The notes beneath the pieces are model-generated. The model saw nothing but the letters and a program-made list of their open reading frames with translations, searched no databases and was not told where the DNA came from. A stretch of 64,000 bases of DNA from an uncultured Cytophagales bacterium (GTDB lineage: Bacteria; Bacteroidota; Bacteroidia; Cytophagales; Cyclobacteriaceae). The translations under genes and the position numbers were made by a program. Shown here piece by piece: positions 4,294-43,150 of this stretch. The stretch lies in assembly GCA_913057175.1 (NCBI GenBank), contig CAJXNP010000011.1:124001-188000 (forward strand). The letters run 5' to 3'. The stretch's first letter is position 1. Every line of letters starts with the position of its first letter.

Positions 4294-4366
4294 TTGCCCG
4301 ACTAGGGCTCGAACCTAGACTCTTCTGAACCAAAATCAGACGTGTTGCCAGTTACACCATCGGGCA
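4294..4366 (-). tRNA. tRNA-Gln, anticodon TTG
   Basis: The minus strand folds as a complete cloverleaf. The acceptor stem is TGCCCGA/TCGGGCA, the anticodon stem is TCTGA/TCAGA around loop TTTTGGT (anticodon TTG, reading CAA), and the T-arm is CTAGG TTCGAGC CCTAG. The discriminator base is A at 4294 and CCA is not encoded. A second tRNA-Gln, with anticodon CTG, lies at 43079-43150. Confidence 0.95.
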
Positions 4367-37658: not shown

Positions 37659-38756
37659 TTACAGAACCCCCTTTGTACTGGGAAGATCGTCAATTTCATT
37701 TAAATTTCTTTGTATGGCCATTTTGATCGCCCTTGCCCAGGCTTTGAAGATAGCCTCAATTTTATGATGTTCATTGGTTCCTTCTGCTTTGATGTTCAGA
37801 TTGCATTTAGATGTATCTGAGAAAGATTTAAAAAAATGCATAAACATTTCAGTCGGCATCTCGCCAATTTTCTCCCGATTAAACTCGGCATCCCAGACCA
37901 GCCAGGGTCTGCCTCCAAAATCAATGGCAACCTGTGCCAGGCAATCATCCATTGGCAATAGGAAACCATATCTTGAAATTCCTTTTTTATCTCCGAGAGC
38001 TCCTAAAAAAGCTTCCCCCAAAGCTAATGCCGTATCTTCTATGGTGTGATGCTCATCGATCTCCAGATCCCCATCAACTTTAATACTAAGATCAATTTTA
38101 CCATGCTTTCCCAGCTGATCCAGCATGTGGTCAAAAAAGGCTATCCCAGTCGATATATTGGTTTTTCCGGTACCATCCAGGTTAACTCTAATTTTAATTT
38201 TGGTTTCACTTGTATTGCGCTCAACTTCAAATTCCCGATTTGGGACTTTTAAAAACCGGTAAACCTCATCCCAATCCGTGGTAATCAGATCACTATAATC
38301 ATTTTCCTTTTCCGATAGAAAAATTGCTTTGCATCCCAGGTTTTGGGCAAGTTGAACATCAGTCAATCGATCACCTATGACATAAGAATTTTTTAAATCG
38401 TAATCGCCCTCCAAATATTTGGCCAGCAAGCCTGTACCAGGTTTTCGTCCGGGTGAATTTTCGTGATCAAAGGATCGGTCGATCAAAATGTCATTAAAAA
38501 CAATTCCTTCGCCTTCCAATGTTTTTAACATTTTATTGTGAGCCGGCCAAAAAGTATTTTCCGGAAAGGATTCCGTACCCAGGCCATCCTGGTTGGAAAC
38601 CATTACCAACTCATAATCAAGTTCTTCTGCTATTTTACGCAAATTAGAAATAGCTTTTGGAACGAATTCCAGCTTCTCCAGCGAATCGATCTGATAATCC
38701 TCAGGTTCAACAATGATCGTTTGATCCCTGTCTATGAATAATACTTTTTTACTCAT
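37659..38756 (-). CDS. hisB: Bifunctional histidinol-phosphatase/imidazoleglycerol-phosphate dehydratase
   Basis: A 365-residue fusion that performs steps six and eight of histidine synthesis. Residues 1-165 are a HAD phosphatase (LFIDRDQTI with the nucleophile Asp, [35 protein letters not shown]). Residues 170-365 are the dehydratase ([51 protein letters not shown]). The phosphatase lacks the zinc-binding cysteines found in E. coli HisB; its loop reads [11 protein letters not shown]. It overlaps hisC by 8 bases. Confidence 0.96.
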
Positions 38757-39798
38757 CCTTTATTGATTTTAGCGCCTCAAGTAATCGTCTGTTTTCGTCA
38801 GACGTTCCAACGGTGATTCTAAGGCAGTCATCACACAAAATTACTTTGGATCGATCCCTGACAATAATCCTTTGGTCAATTAAAGATTGAAATATCCTTC
38901 CGGCCTCATCCATTTTTACCAGTAAAAAATTTGCATCTGTTGGAAAAACTTTGATCACACCACTTAATTGAACCAGTTCATTTTTCAGGATCTCTCTTTG
39001 GCTTAGAATTTCCCTGACGTGATTGTCTTTCCAGGAAACATTATTCAAAGCTTCCAGAGCCAGTTTTTGCGTTGCACCATTTATATTGTAAGGAGGCTTG
39101 ATCTTATCCAGAATGTTCACAATTTCCTTATCCGCAAAGGCCATTCCCAATCTCAAAGCTGCCAATCCCCATGCCTTGCTCAAGGTCTGCAATATGAAGA
39201 GATTTTTATATTTTCCCAATTTGGGAATAAAACCATCAAATTCGCTAAAATCGATGTAAGCCTCATCCAAAACAACCAAACCATTGAAATTCTGAATAAT
39301 GGACTCAATATCTTCTTCATTCATTCGGTTTCCAGTCGGATTATTAGGAGAACATAAAAAAATTAATTTAGTTCTCTCATCTGTTGAATCCAGAATATTG
39401 TTTACATCCAATTGAAAATCTGTTGTTAAAGGAACTTTTTTGATTTGAATGTTATTGATCTGCGCACTAACTTCATACATGCCGTAAGTTGGTGGCGTAA
39501 GAATGAGATTGTCCACTCCGGGTTCACAAAATGCACGAATGATCAGGTCGATGGGCTCGTCACTTCCGTTGCCAAGAAAAACCTTTTCCACATCAACTCC
39601 TTTAATCTCTGAAACCCTGTTTTTTAAGATCTTTTGATGTGGGTCAGGGTACCGGTTAAAAGATTCACTGGTGGCCGAACCAAACGGGTTTTCATTGGCA
39701 TCAAGAAATACACCTTCTCTGCCTGTATATTCATCTCTGGCTGAAGAATAGGGTTTGATATTTCGCAAATGCGGTCGAAGTAATTCCAGGATATTCAT
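38749..39798 (-). CDS. hisC: Histidinol-phosphate aminotransferase
   Basis: A 349-residue class II PLP aminotransferase that makes L-histidinol phosphate. Blocks seen are [52 protein letters not shown], and the PLP-lysine region [16 protein letters not shown]. The length matches the family. It lies between hisD (43 bases upstream) and hisB (overlap of 8 bases) in the order hisG-D-C-B, typical for Bacteroidota. The start is ATG 39798. Confidence 0.96.
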
Positions 39799-39841: not shown

Positions 39842-41131
39842 TTAATTCTTTTCCAAATATTTAAGTCTGAGCGTCACAGCATTTTTATGTCCTACAAGAT
39901 GTTCTTCTTCCGCCATCACCTCCACGATCGGACCCAGGGTTTTTATTCCCCTTTCAGTTAATTTCTGATAAGTAATTTTCTTGACAAAGCTATCAACAGA
40001 AACCCCACTGAAGGCAAGCGCTGCTTTATTTGTTGGTAAGGTATGATTCGTTCCCGATGCGTAGTCGCCAACAGATTCCGGCGAAAGATTACCTAAAAAT
40101 ACTGAGCCCGCATTAATGATCTGGTCAGCGACCTTCTCAGGTTCCTTTACAGAGAGGATCAGGTGCTCTGCAGCATATTGATTTAATAGCTTTATGGCTT
40201 CCTCCTGGGAATTCATTACCACCAAAGAACTCTTTGCCAACGACTGTTCTGCTATGCGCTTTCTCGGCAATTTATCTAATTGTTTATCGATCTCCAGCTT
40301 ACATTTTTTTAGTATATCCACGTTACTCGTTACCAAAAGTACCTGGCTGTCGATGCCGTGTTCCGCCTGTGATAAAAGATCTGCCGCCACAAACTGTGGA
40401 ATTGCGGTTTCATCTGCATAAACTGCTACCTCAGACGGGCCGGCTGGCATGTCAATCGCCATACCTTTCTGGCTGACATATTGCTTAGCGGCTGTTACAT
40501 ACTGATTGCCCGGGCCAAATATTTTATACACTTTAGGGACGGATTCGGTGCCATAGGTCATAGCCGCAATAGCCTGTGCTCCACCAACTTTTATCACTTT
40601 ATGAATACCAACTAAATTAGCTGCATATAAAATAGCCGGGTGAATTCTCCCTTCCTTGGTTGGAGGAGTACATAGAACAATCTCCCTGCACCCTGCAATT
40701 TTTGCCGGTATTCCCAGCATCAAGACCGTGCTAAACAATGGTGCTGTACCACCAGGAACATATAAACCTACTTTTTCGATGGGTACAGATCTTCTCATAC
40801 AACTTACCCCACGCATTGTTTCGATTTTCAGTTCACTCTGTACCTGCGCCTGGTGAAATTTTTCAATATTGGCAACTGCTTTATTAATCGCCGATTTCAG
40901 CTCAGGATTGACTTTGGTAATTGCTGCCTGAATTTCCCTTTCAGTAACTAAAACATCCTTTATTTCGGCATGATCATACTCAAATGCAAAGCGGATCAGG
41001 GCTTTATCTCCTCTACGCCTCACACTCTTAAAAATTGGCTTGATAACCTTTTTCAAGCTTTTGAGCTTGATTACAGGTCGTGTTGTTATTTGCTTGATCT
41101 CATCTTTACCAGGGTTGACAAAAGTTTTCAC
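39842..41131 (-). CDS. hisD: Histidinol dehydrogenase, GTG start
   Basis: A 429-residue zinc enzyme that oxidises histidinol to histidine with two NAD+. It shows SVPIEKVGLYVPGGTAPLFS, ALTYG-like AAMTYGTESVPKVYKIFGPG, DMPAGPSEVAVYAD, DLLSQAEHGIDSQVLLV with the metal/catalytic residues, and SVGDYASGTNHTLPTN. An in-frame stop lies just upstream and no ATG is available, so GTG 41131 (KTFVNPGKDE follows) is the start. It is 18 bases downstream of hisG. Confidence 0.96.
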   Translation of the reverse strand: MKTFVNPGKDEIKQITTRPVIKLKSLKKVIKPIFKSVRRRGDKALIRFAFEYDHAEIKDVLVTEREIQAAITKVNPELKSAINKAVANIEKFHQAQVQSELKIETMRGVSCMRRSVPIEKVGLYVPGGTAPLFSTVLMLGIPAKIAGCREIVLCTPPTKEGRIHPAILYAANLVGIHKVIKVGGAQAIAAMTYGTESVPKVYKIFGPGNQYVTAAKQYVSQKGMAIDMPAGPSEVAVYADETAIPQFVAADLLSQAEHGIDSQVLLVTSNVDILKKCKLEIDKQLDKLPRKRIAEQSLAKSSLVVMNSQEEAIKLLNQYAAEHLILSVKEPEKVADQIINAGSVFLGNLSPESVGDYASGTNHTLPTNKAALAFSGVSVDSFVKKITYQKLTERGIKTLGPIVEVMAEEEHLVGHKNAVTLRLKYLEKN

Positions 41132-41149: not shown

Positions 41150-42010
41150 TTACAATATCATCTTTTCAATCGGTACAACCAAAATTCCCTGGGCACCTGC
41201 TTTTTTAAGTTTTTCAATTCTTTCCCAAAACTCATCTTCCTTGATTGCTGAATGGATAGAGCTCCAGCCTTCCTGCGCTAAAGGAAGGACGGTTGGGCTT
41301 TTCATGCCGGGAAGTATTTTTATGATCTCATCGATGGCTTCGTTTGGAGCGTTCAACAAGATATACTTATTAATTTTCCCATTTTGCACGGATTCAATTC
41401 TGAAAATCAATTGATCAAGAATGGCTTTTTTAGCTGAGCTAATATCCTGATATCCAATCATCACCGCTTCGGATTTGAAAATTACTTCTACCTCCTTCAA
41501 CCCATTGCTGATCAACGTACTGCCTGAACTTACGATATCGCATATTCCATCAGCTAAACCTATACCCGGGGCTATTTCAACAGATCCGGAAATCTCATGG
41601 ATTTCTGCGTTAATACTTTCTGAATTCAGATAATCCGATAGTATTTTAGGATAGGATGTGGCTATTTTTTTCCCGTCAAAATATTTCGAACTTTTGTACT
41701 CAACACTTTTCGGTACAGCCAGACTCAGTCTGCATTTACTGAACCCCAGCTTTTTAATGTAGTCGATATTCTTCCCTTTTTCAACCGCTACATTCTCTCC
41801 AACAATACCAATATCAGCCACACCATCTGCCACATAATCGGGGATATCATCATCCCTAAGAAAGAGCAATTCTATCGGAAAATTATATGAACTAGAGGTC
41901 AATTTGCTTACACCGTTGTTCATTTTAATCCCGCATTCCTTGATGATCTGAATGGAATCCTCACTTAGTCTACCCTTGCTCTGAATGGCCAAACGCAAAA
42001 CTTCGCTCAT
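41150..42010 (-). CDS. hisG: ATP phosphoribosyltransferase, long form
   Basis: A 286-residue HisG_L enzyme, the first and feedback-controlled step of histidine synthesis, joining ATP and PRPP. The catalytic part has AIQSKGRLSEDS, VADGVADIGIVGENV and the PRPP loop ADGICDIVSSGSTLISNGL. The last 75 residues are the ACT-like regulatory domain that binds histidine (PGMKSPTVLPLAQEGWSSIH). It heads the hisGDCB(-TSUP) operon. A histidine-rich leader peptide with potential RNA switching lies 85 bases upstream. hisHAFI are not in this window. Confidence 0.96.
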   Translation of the reverse strand: MSEVLRLAIQSKGRLSEDSIQIIKECGIKMNNGVSKLTSSSYNFPIELLFLRDDDIPDYVADGVADIGIVGENVAVEKGKNIDYIKKLGFSKCRLSLAVPKSVEYKSSKYFDGKKIATSYPKILSDYLNSESINAEIHEISGSVEIAPGIGLADGICDIVSSGSTLISNGLKEVEVIFKSEAVMIGYQDISSAKKAILDQLIFRIESVQNGKINKYILLNAPNEAIDEIIKILPGMKSPTVLPLAQEGWSSIHSAIKEDEFWERIEKLKKAGAQGILVVPIEKMIL

Positions 42011-42088
42011 GAGATTTATTATTTAATATTTTGAAATTTGAATAATTGGAAATGGTTATATGTCAATTGATTGTGATAGAAGCGCTTT

Positions 42089-42105
42089 TTCCTCTCTACG
42101 AGGAA
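42089..42105 (-). promoter_or_regulatory. Hairpin over the his leader stop codon
   Basis: TTCCTC and GAGGAA form a perfect 6-bp stem with a 5-nt loop; the TAG stop of the leader peptide lies in the loop region (42098-42096). In addition GCGCTT (42167-42162), before the leader start, can pair with AAGCGC (42087-42082), after the leader stop. Alternative pairings that depend on ribosome position are thus possible. No T-run follows, so it is not a classical intrinsic attenuator. Confidence 0.5.
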
Positions 42106-42146
42106 TGGTGATGAAGATGATGATATGGATAACATCTGAAAAGCAT
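42096..42146 (-). CDS. hisL: Histidine operon leader peptide (hisL-like)
   Basis: A 16-residue frame from ATG 42146 to TAG, encoding MLFRCYPYHHLHHHSS. Five of six consecutive codons (CAT CAT CTT CAT CAC CAT) specify histidine, as in his leader peptides of other bacteria, where a ribosome stalling for lack of charged tRNA-His changes downstream RNA folding. It lies directly upstream of hisG on the same strand and about 20 bases after a promoter-like TATTTTTG. Such a cluster of histidine codons in the exact place expected makes chance unlikely. The mechanism is open, since I see no U-rich terminator. Confidence 0.8.
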   Translation of the reverse strand: MLFRCYPYHHLHHHSS

Positions 42147-42166
42147 AATTGACAAATATGTAAGCG

Positions 42167-42174
42167 CAAAAATA
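42167..42174 (-). promoter_or_regulatory. Candidate promoter -7 box of the his operon
   Basis: The minus strand reads TATTTTTG, an exact TAnnTTTG match, about 20 bases before the leader-peptide ATG. No TTG is found at the right distance upstream (TTA instead). Confidence 0.45.
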
Positions 42175-42254: not shown

Positions 42255-42911
42255 CTAAATCACAAATTGACCCATCAATCGTGCACCGGCAAAATTTTCA
42301 AACAAAGAAATACAAAGCTCGGATGAACTACTAAAATTATCGGCCTTTAAAAAATTATAGAAAATGAGAAGGAATTTTGTTGTTTCAGGGGTGATCATTG
42401 TTCTCATTGAGTCACTGGTTGGTGTGCCAAAAGGACCAAGGTTATCGTAAAGTGTTGGAAGGAACTCAATGTTGAGGTTTCCTCGTCCAATAGCTTCGTA
42501 TGGTGATTGATCCCCTACGGACAATCGAGCGTTACCAGCTATTTTGCTTGCATCAAAACCACCTATTGAAAACCCGGTCAAAACCGATACCAGGTTGAGA
42601 CAGTCTACGAGGTTATTCACTTTGTATAACCCCTTACCATTTACAACTCGCCTGAGCAAAGCCTCAGCAGAAGGTCGGTACCTTGACGGGTCCTTTCCCA
42701 ATTTTTTATAAGCTTCCCTCGTGGTGTGATTAGAAGGGATTTGAGAAATTTCTTCCAGGTTTAATTTCTCGGAAATTTCATCCAACTTTTTATTGGCTTC
42801 CTTCCAAAAAGCATCCGAGCTATCCGTAACCGTCACCTCAAATTCAAATACATGCAGAGTGGTATCCGGCAAGACTTTCTCAAAATCCGGGTCGATAGAG
42901 ATTTTTATCAT
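42255..42911 (-). CDS. B3/B4 tRNA-binding domain protein
   Basis: A 218-residue protein that consists of the B3/B4 domain otherwise found in the beta chain of phenylalanyl-tRNA synthetase, where it edits mischarged tRNA. Blocks include HTTREAYKKLGKDPSRYRPS, EALLRRVVNGKGLYKVNNLV, DCLNLVSVLTGFSIGGFD and RLSVGDQSPYEAIGRG. Free-standing members are thought to act in trans on aminoacyl-tRNA or on free amino acids, but this is not settled. The ATG at 42911 fits. It is a single gene upstream of the his leader, on the same strand. Confidence 0.85.
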   Translation of the reverse strand: MIKISIDPDFEKVLPDTTLHVFEFEVTVTDSSDAFWKEANKKLDEISEKLNLEEISQIPSNHTTREAYKKLGKDPSRYRPSAEALLRRVVNGKGLYKVNNLVDCLNLVSVLTGFSIGGFDASKIAGNARLSVGDQSPYEAIGRGNLNIEFLPTLYDNLGPFGTPTSDSMRTMITPETTKFLLIFYNFLKADNFSSSSELCISLFENFAGARLMGQFVI

Positions 42912-43078: not shown

Positions 43079-43150
43079 TGCCGGATCGTCTAATTGGTAG
43101 GATATGGGATTCTGGCTCCCACGGTCTAGGTTCGAATCCTAGTCCGGCAG
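43079..43150 (+). tRNA. tRNA-Gln, anticodon CTG
   Basis: A full cloverleaf: acceptor stem TGCCGGA/TCCGGCA, anticodon stem TGGGA/TCCCA around loop TTCTGGC (anticodon CTG, reading CAG), and T-arm CTAGG TTCGAAT CCTAG. The discriminator is G and CCA is not encoded. It differs at many positions from the TTG isoacceptor at 4294-4366. Confidence 0.95.

Follow-up and report, generated by a model that had tools for sequence, protein, structure and literature searches.

A conserved histidine-rich leader frame upstream of hisG in Bacteroidota and its form without a detected intrinsic terminator

The window, which is the whole stretch of 64,000 nucleotides that was analysed, carries a short histidine-rich frame upstream of hisG, and this frame is not due to chance. 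Comparison with relatives exhibits the frame and its conservation, the lack of an intrinsic terminator after it, a hairpin over its stop codon, the composition of the spacer leading to hisG, and a contrast with the trp and ilv leaders. The leader is very probably a ribosome-stalling histidine sensor, as far as the His-sensing part alone is concerned. We tentatively propose that the output element of this sensor was exchanged in the window's clade and that the output is Rho-dependent termination governed by ribosome occupancy. The features of the locus are listed below.

42096 to 42146, minus strand: leader peptide frame MLFRCYPYHHLHHHSS, 16 codons, with its stop codon 85 nt before hisG
42105 to 42122, minus strand: His codon run CATCATCTTCATCACCAT, five His in six codons, ending two codons before the stop codon
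42089 to 42105, minus strand: stop-codon hairpin TTCCTC-GTAGA-GAGGAA, 6 bp, with TAG inside the loop
42011 to 42095, minus strand: leader-hisG spacer, 85 nt, 15 C and 6 G, without an intrinsic terminator by scan
42167 to 42174, minus strand: TATTTTTG, a perfect TAnnTTTG, 20 nt upstream of the leader ATG
42153 to 42160, minus strand: CATATTTG, TAnnTTTG with one mismatch, 6 nt upstream of the leader ATG
42162 to 42167 and 42082 to 42087: GCGCTT and AAGCGC, the bracket pair flanking the leader frame
41150 to 42010, minus strand: hisG (TIGR00070, NCBIfam cut-off passed)
39842 to 41131, minus strand: hisD (TIGR00069, NCBIfam cut-off passed)
38749 to 39798, minus strand: hisC (TIGR01141, NCBIfam cut-off passed)
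37659 to 38756, minus strand: hisB, bifunctional (NF003937, NCBIfam cut-off passed)

The initial annotation had described a 16-residue frame with five His in six codons at 85 nt from hisG, a TAnnTTTG match upstream of it, and a 6-bp hairpin over its stop codon. The frame was confirmed at 42096-42146 (minus), and the hairpin is present at 42089-42105 with TAG in its loop. TAnnTTTG, which we take to be the promoter consensus, was used to find candidate promoter matches of the leader. The match reported earlier is the perfect one at 42167-42174, and a second match with one mismatch at 42153-42160 lies closer to the ATG. The 6 nt between CATATTTG and the ATG is a spacing common in relatives (4-10 nt). 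The sequence directly 3' of the stop-codon hairpin is AAAGCGC, which has no T. There is no U-tract between the window's frame and hisG, and the best candidate of the terminator scan in the window is weaker than -5 kcal/mol. GCGCTT and AAGCGC, said earlier to bracket the frame, are both present; their pairing is unsupported and was rejected as a structure, as the fold of the whole leader is no better than that of shuffles (z -1.42, with 19 of 200 shuffles as good). The Rfam search of the window at the gathering threshold matched tRNAs only, namely tRNA genes at 43079-43150 (+) and 4294-4366 (-), and RF00514 His_leader was unmatched. An ORF of 218 aa at 42255-42911 (minus) ends upstream of the leader and is without an NCBIfam match.

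Of the 54 ORF starts in the window (ORFs of at least 150 aa), hisG alone is preceded within 260 nt by an ATG frame that reaches 4 His in 8 codons, and one other ORF start reaches 3 His in 8 codons. At the same threshold, such a frame occurs in 206 of 268 real hisG upstream regions, some of them from near relatives and a few of them duplicates, versus 4 of 2,260 shuffles of the relatives' upstream regions. Ser is the next-ranking residue, with 18 of the 268 regions. The hisG search found the gene in 138 of 148 genomes of the window's family, and upstream regions were examined for 137 family loci. The hisG search of the class gave 87 of 197 genomes, six of them in the window's family, so 81 loci of other families were examined. 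The hisG search of the phylum sample gave 103 of 118 genomes, with 11 loci examined. The conservation of the His codons upstream of hisG in relatives, on which the initial annotation had made its reading depend, is strong. With the laxer threshold of at least 3 His in 8 codons, the leader was identified in 125/137 loci of the window's family (11 loci are without a leader, and L360, which has no hisG start, was left out) and in 69/81 loci from other families of the class. Outside the class, the leader was identified in 3 of the 6 loci examined.

Among the 80 named loci, 77 were judged after leaving out L163 and L182 (too short) and L190 (no start). At least 4 His are present in 69 of them, 3 His in three, and fewer in five, which are Emticicia, a Jiulongibacter MAG, and three other MAGs. 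The loci L118, L119, L121, L122, and L126 (Emticicia, the Jiulongibacter MAG, and others) exhibit no His-rich leader, so the leader was lost or moved in some lineages. The Runella frames (L123-L125) have a GTG or TTG start and are doubtful. Most Flavobacterium loci have a near-fixed form of the frame, for example MFTNQLHHHHFHYCSQAMC followed by a stop codon. One locus on a contig labelled as a Deltaproteobacteria MAG (L174) has a Bacteroidota-like hisG, a six-His leader, and a strong terminator.

The leaders are of two kinds. The scan scored a terminator where a hairpin of 16-45 nt at -11 kcal/mol came with 5 or more T in 8 nt. Outside the window's family, 56 of the 69 leaders from the class have a U-tract terminator after them, and at least one locus with a terminator was identified in 22 of 30 families. 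In the window's family, a U-tract terminator follows 37 of the 125 leaders, and none was detected in the remaining 88, the window included. The His leader control in the phylum therefore looks mostly classical, with intrinsic terminators after 56/69 leaders of other families and 37/125 leaders of the family. The loci L001-L088, of which L001-L085 are ordered by the similarity ranking from the family hisG search, consist of 83 terminator-less loci, 5 loci without a leader, and no terminator-bearing locus. Only 5 of the 88 terminator-less family loci have a candidate at -7 kcal/mol or better, and in all five it is the stop-codon hairpin. L387 (f76) was scored terminator-less with a hairpin of -9.1 kcal/mol and TTTTTGTTTT, just under the cut, and this hairpin and U-tract are probably a real terminator. 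The earlier view that the missing U-tract may mean a translational or Rho-based output applies to all 88 terminator-less family loci, the window being one of them, but it is not general.

The terminator-less family loci also differ from the terminator-bearing family loci in other characteristics, in a comparison of 88 versus 37 loci that counts related genomes as independent. TAnnTTTG is matched perfectly no more than 45 nt from the start codon in 77/88 versus 8/37 loci. In 66/88 versus 1/37 loci, the match lies 4-10 nt from the start codon, which was chosen as the in-frame ATG with a promoter spacing nearest 7, a rule that somewhat favours short spacings. The last His is within 3 codons of the stop codon in 77/88 versus 3/37 loci, and the stop-codon hairpin is present in 66/88 versus 13/37 loci. 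The spacers, computed with the terminator letters removed, have a C minus G of 0.091 in terminator-less loci (n=87) versus 0.030 in terminator-bearing loci (n=37), and YC steps per nt of 0.132 versus 0.063.

Two sets of 88 loci were used. The family sample underlies the terminator counts and the comparison of 88 with 37, and a slightly different set that includes named loci underlies the promoter match against random positions, the hairpin shuffles, the medians from His to stop, and the complementarity between leader and spacer. In this second set, the promoter match is present in 77/88 loci versus 17.8 at random positions, a count that omits the duplicates L113, L114, L191, L204, and L211 and the loci with less than 300 nt upstream or with an ATG frame of fewer than 3 His. 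The number of codons from the His run to the stop codon has a median of 2 in the window's clade versus medians of 8, 7, and 6.5 in three terminator-bearing groups.

The stop-codon hairpin was assessed by shuffle tests and arm-swap tests. It is present in 65 of 88 terminator-less loci versus 14.3 expected after shuffling both flanks. When one locus per distinct 5' arm was sampled, which reduces relatedness, it is present in 20 of 37 loci versus a mean of 6.8 and a maximum of 12 in 300 swaps of the 3' flanks. The pairing is kept across different arms, namely ATTCCTC/GAGGAAT, ATCTCTC/GAGAGAT (Roseivirga), ATTGCT/AGCAAT, and CATTGCT/AGTAATG, while the last leader residues vary (Ser-Ser, Leu-Ser, Cys, and Cys-Phe). 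Among terminator-bearing groups, the hairpin is present in 1/60 Flavobacterium loci (13.2 expected), in 8/50 loci of a second group (11.4 expected), and, by the shuffle test, in 8/19 family loci (4.2 expected). The hairpin is thus enriched in terminator-less loci and not exclusive to them, as it also occurs in some terminator-bearing groups.

The consensus fold of 26 core loci recovered the stop-codon hairpin alone, with a two-sided change in one of its 7 pairs, and no alternative hairpin partner emerged from this core alignment (A1). Because the hairpin hardly varies among these loci, the evidence for it comes from the shuffle and arm-swap tests. The 26 loci were drawn from 40 loci preselected for a ATATCGCC-like motif, so the invariance of the core is partly by choice. 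Another alignment (A2), in which the hairpin loop is ungapped, was not used for pair counts. Directly after the stop-codon hairpin, loci of alignment A1 (e.g. L003, L012, and L014) have ACATATCGCCC, which is conserved beyond the selection motif and is absent from the window. ACATATC, which resembles ACATATCGCCC, lies inside many leader frames of this alignment at about 7 codons from the start. A search by eye found no pairing partner of ACATATCGCCC.

In the terminator-less group, C makes up 0.221 and G 0.132 of the spacers, and C outnumbers G in 81 of 87 of them. For comparison, the values ahead of the window's other ORFs are 0.160 for C and 0.150 for G. At the same loci, C minus G is -0.012 upstream of the promoter versus 0.089 in the spacer. 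The terminator-bearing Flavobacterium spacers show the bias as well: C outnumbers G in 57 of 60 of them, with lower YC (0.079), and the excess is larger than in the upstream regions of these loci. The low G just before the hisG start codon is also present in Flavobacterium. Part of the spacer bias may therefore serve hisG translation, since Flavobacterium shares both the C over G and the low G while having terminators.

The trp and ilv leaders of the same genomes served as a cleaner control. Upstream of trpE in relatives, a Trp-rich frame was identified by its own rule in 21 of 24 loci, and an intrinsic terminator follows it in 20 of 21. The trp frame of G002 has no terminator and is probably no true leader. 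Upstream of ilvD, a branched-chain frame was identified by a strict rule in 9 of 22 loci, with a terminator in 9/9. The window's genome itself has a trpE leader with a Trp run (L284, MKKFYNYINLYWWWLYEITSR and stop codon) and an ilvD leader with a branched-chain frame (L326, MRLISLLLVSVVVIVDNPC and stop codon), both followed by a U-tract terminator. In 10 genomes that have a terminator-less his leader, 15 of 15 comparisons place the his spacer above the trp or ilv spacer, both for C over G and for YC. The loss of the terminator hence concerns his and not the whole genome, because the trp and ilv leaders in the same genomes keep their terminators. The rho gene is present in the window's genome.

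The initial annotation had read the locus as ribosome-dependent attenuation of hisGDCB. This reading is partly supported: the conserved His codons agree with it, the bracket pair is unsupported, and the regulation of hisGDCB by the leader remains the interpretation that these sequences suggest. Transcription of hisGDCB would start at or just before the leader frame. The promoter spacing of 4-10 nt in 66/88 loci may reflect a leaderless transcript, and the window itself has both the perfect match at 20 nt and the one-mismatch match at 6 nt. Under a shortage of charged tRNA-His, the translating ribosome would stall on the His codons of the leader, and it would cover the 5' arm of the hairpin, as that arm starts directly after the last His codon. 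A well-fed ribosome would reach the stop codon and leave, so that the end of the frame, which is rich in pyrimidines, and the spacer with its high C and low G would lie bare. Rho would then load on the bare leader RNA and halt transcription before or within hisG, and a parked ribosome would prevent this loading. In terminator-bearing relatives, about 7 codons separate the His run from the stop codon, so ribosomes at these two sites would cover different RNA. The window's clade has the two sites almost on top of each other (median of 2 codons), and the difference would then be the presence or absence of a ribosome, which points to an attenuator read by ribosome occupancy and not by a choice between two hairpins.

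Rho-dependent termination may be the most economical output given the C-rich, G-poor spacer and the rho gene. The stalling, the action of Rho, the role of the hairpin, and the direction of control are all predicted from sequence. Several points speak against Rho, among them the spacer bias shared with Flavobacterium and the occurrence of the hairpin in terminator-bearing loci. A ribosome on the His codons leaves most of the spacer uncovered, so the geometry alone is insufficient to exclude Rho from it, and the stop-codon hairpin would hide part of the pyrimidine-rich stretch.

It is rather unlikely that the attenuation is translational, where the leader ribosome, through its position, would reshape the RNA near the hisG start and thereby make the translation of hisG sensitive to histidine. 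The missing terminator fits such an output, and so does the complementarity between leader and spacer near hisG in a few loci, with 15 of 87 terminator-less loci below z -2. However, this excess was rejected as a specific signal, as 13 of 60 Flavobacterium loci, which have terminators, are also below z -2. The modelled ribosome positions gave means of 0.577-0.581 for the accessibility of the hisG start versus 0.581 for the free RNA, with no consistent direction; this modelling is weak either way, since its positive control (the terminator probability) moved little too.

It is less probable that the stop-codon hairpin acts as a weak intrinsic terminator or pausing hairpin that a stalled ribosome blocks from forming. 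Its 5' arm directly follows the last His codon, and in L020, L024, L050, L053, and L070 the hairpin (-7 to -9.6 kcal/mol) is followed by a T-rich stretch. However, this stretch is not general across the 26-locus alignment, and the window's hairpin is followed by AAAGCGC, which is without T. Control of mRNA stability, with ribosome occupancy shielding the leader from RNase cleavage, is improbable. It would use the same occupancy geometry and make a terminator unnecessary, but the leader has no known cleavage site, and a C-rich spacer specific to his would not be expected from such control.

It is very improbable that the leader is a classical attenuator with an intrinsic terminator that escaped the scan. 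L387 (-9.1) falls just below the cut of the scan, but the same scan detected 37 family and 56 other his terminators, 20/21 trp terminators, and 9/9 ilv terminators, while the window's best candidate does not reach -5 and only 5/88 loci reach -7. A His frame that is untranslated or non-regulatory is hardly credible, as His and no other residue is conserved at the place of the leader across the class.

Of the 77 rows of the HisG tree, 34 terminator-less ones cluster together (support 99/97). This group also holds Emticicia, which has no leader, and a Runella row scored terminator-bearing, and one of its 34 terminator-less rows is the other, doubtful Runella row. The terminator-less rows elsewhere on the tree are two of family f3 and two of family f36. 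L387 (f76) carries the terminator-less label on this tree despite its near-cut hairpin and U-tract. The starred branches force at least 4 label changes, a count inflated by the Runella rows. Family f36 (L262-L268) is far from the window's clade, and 7/7 of its loci are terminator-less by scan. Their folds exhibit a hairpin at the stop codon or just before it, although the automatic score found it in only 1/9 loci of the mixed group that holds them. L264, L266, and L268 of this family share TGTATGTTTCTACGCGAAATAACAACC 3' of the hairpin. The terminator-less rows on the f3 and f36 branches suggest that the exchange of the terminator may have occurred more than once. It is conceivable, short of probable, that in one large lineage his alone swapped its intrinsic terminator for a ribosome-occupancy attenuator, with Rho or another factor acting on the C-rich spacer. 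The same guarded reading of this lineage includes a near-leaderless frame, a His run abutting the stop-codon hairpin, and trp and ilv leaders that stayed classical.

Leader-peptide attenuation is a classical mode of control. The His leader of Enterobacteria (RF00514) shares with the window a run of His codons in a short frame before hisG and the presumed sensing of charged tRNA-His. The window's leader differs from it in having no intrinsic terminator and in a His run that abuts the stop codon. RF00514 was unmatched in L001 at E up to 1, and the terminator-bearing relative L105 matched it below threshold (30.2 of 49 bits, E 0.36). Weak sub-threshold matches to Rfam leader models were found in L091, L102, and L105. 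The Flavobacterium His leaders identified in this work have the same place and the same His run, with TAnnTTTG upstream in 59/60 loci. They differ from the window's leader in the U-tract terminator, in a stop codon at least 7 codons past the His run, in a promoter that mostly lies 17-41 nt ahead of the start codon, and in the stop-codon hairpin (1/60). In E. coli tnaC and Salmonella mgtL/corL, the position of the ribosome on the leader frame decides the action of Rho. Their signals are different from that of the window's leader, where the role of Rho is a proposal.

Our literature search found no account of his leader control in Bacteroidota and no description of the terminator-less His leader form. 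Vitreschak et al. 2004 (FEMS Microbiol Lett) reportedly predicted attenuators in Bacteroidetes/Chlorobi, so the priority for the classical His leader form may lie there. In its passages on leader genes, PMC4833913 treats them in general and covers hisG for other groups only. The trp-linked Bacteroid-trp motif (RF01692) is listed for Bacteroidetes in PMC2864571. RF01692 and the Trp_leader RF00513 are likewise amino-acid leader RNAs, but they concern trp and not his. In the six trp and ilv loci scanned, Trp leaders of relatives among them, RF01692 was unmatched and RF00513 gave sub-threshold matches in two only. In mycobacteria, leaderless polycysteine frames attenuate downstream genes (Canestrari et al. 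2020, as given in PMC9031893 and cited in PMC9094748). As far as these sources describe them, the mycobacterial frames share with the window's leader a very short 5' end, a run of one codon, and the attenuation of downstream genes. They differ in using cysteine and in acting on translation (PMC9031893), whereas the window's frame has histidine and a leaderless start that is predicted.

The Rho-dependent, translational, pausing, and decay models differ in their predictions. Leader frames rich in His occur widely across the class, yet no Rfam family matched the window. Both kinds of leader stand side by side in one genome, where his is without and trp and ilv are with an intrinsic terminator. 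The His leaders of these bacteria are thus a natural experiment in attenuator evolution, with one His-codon sensor and two kinds of output among related lineages.
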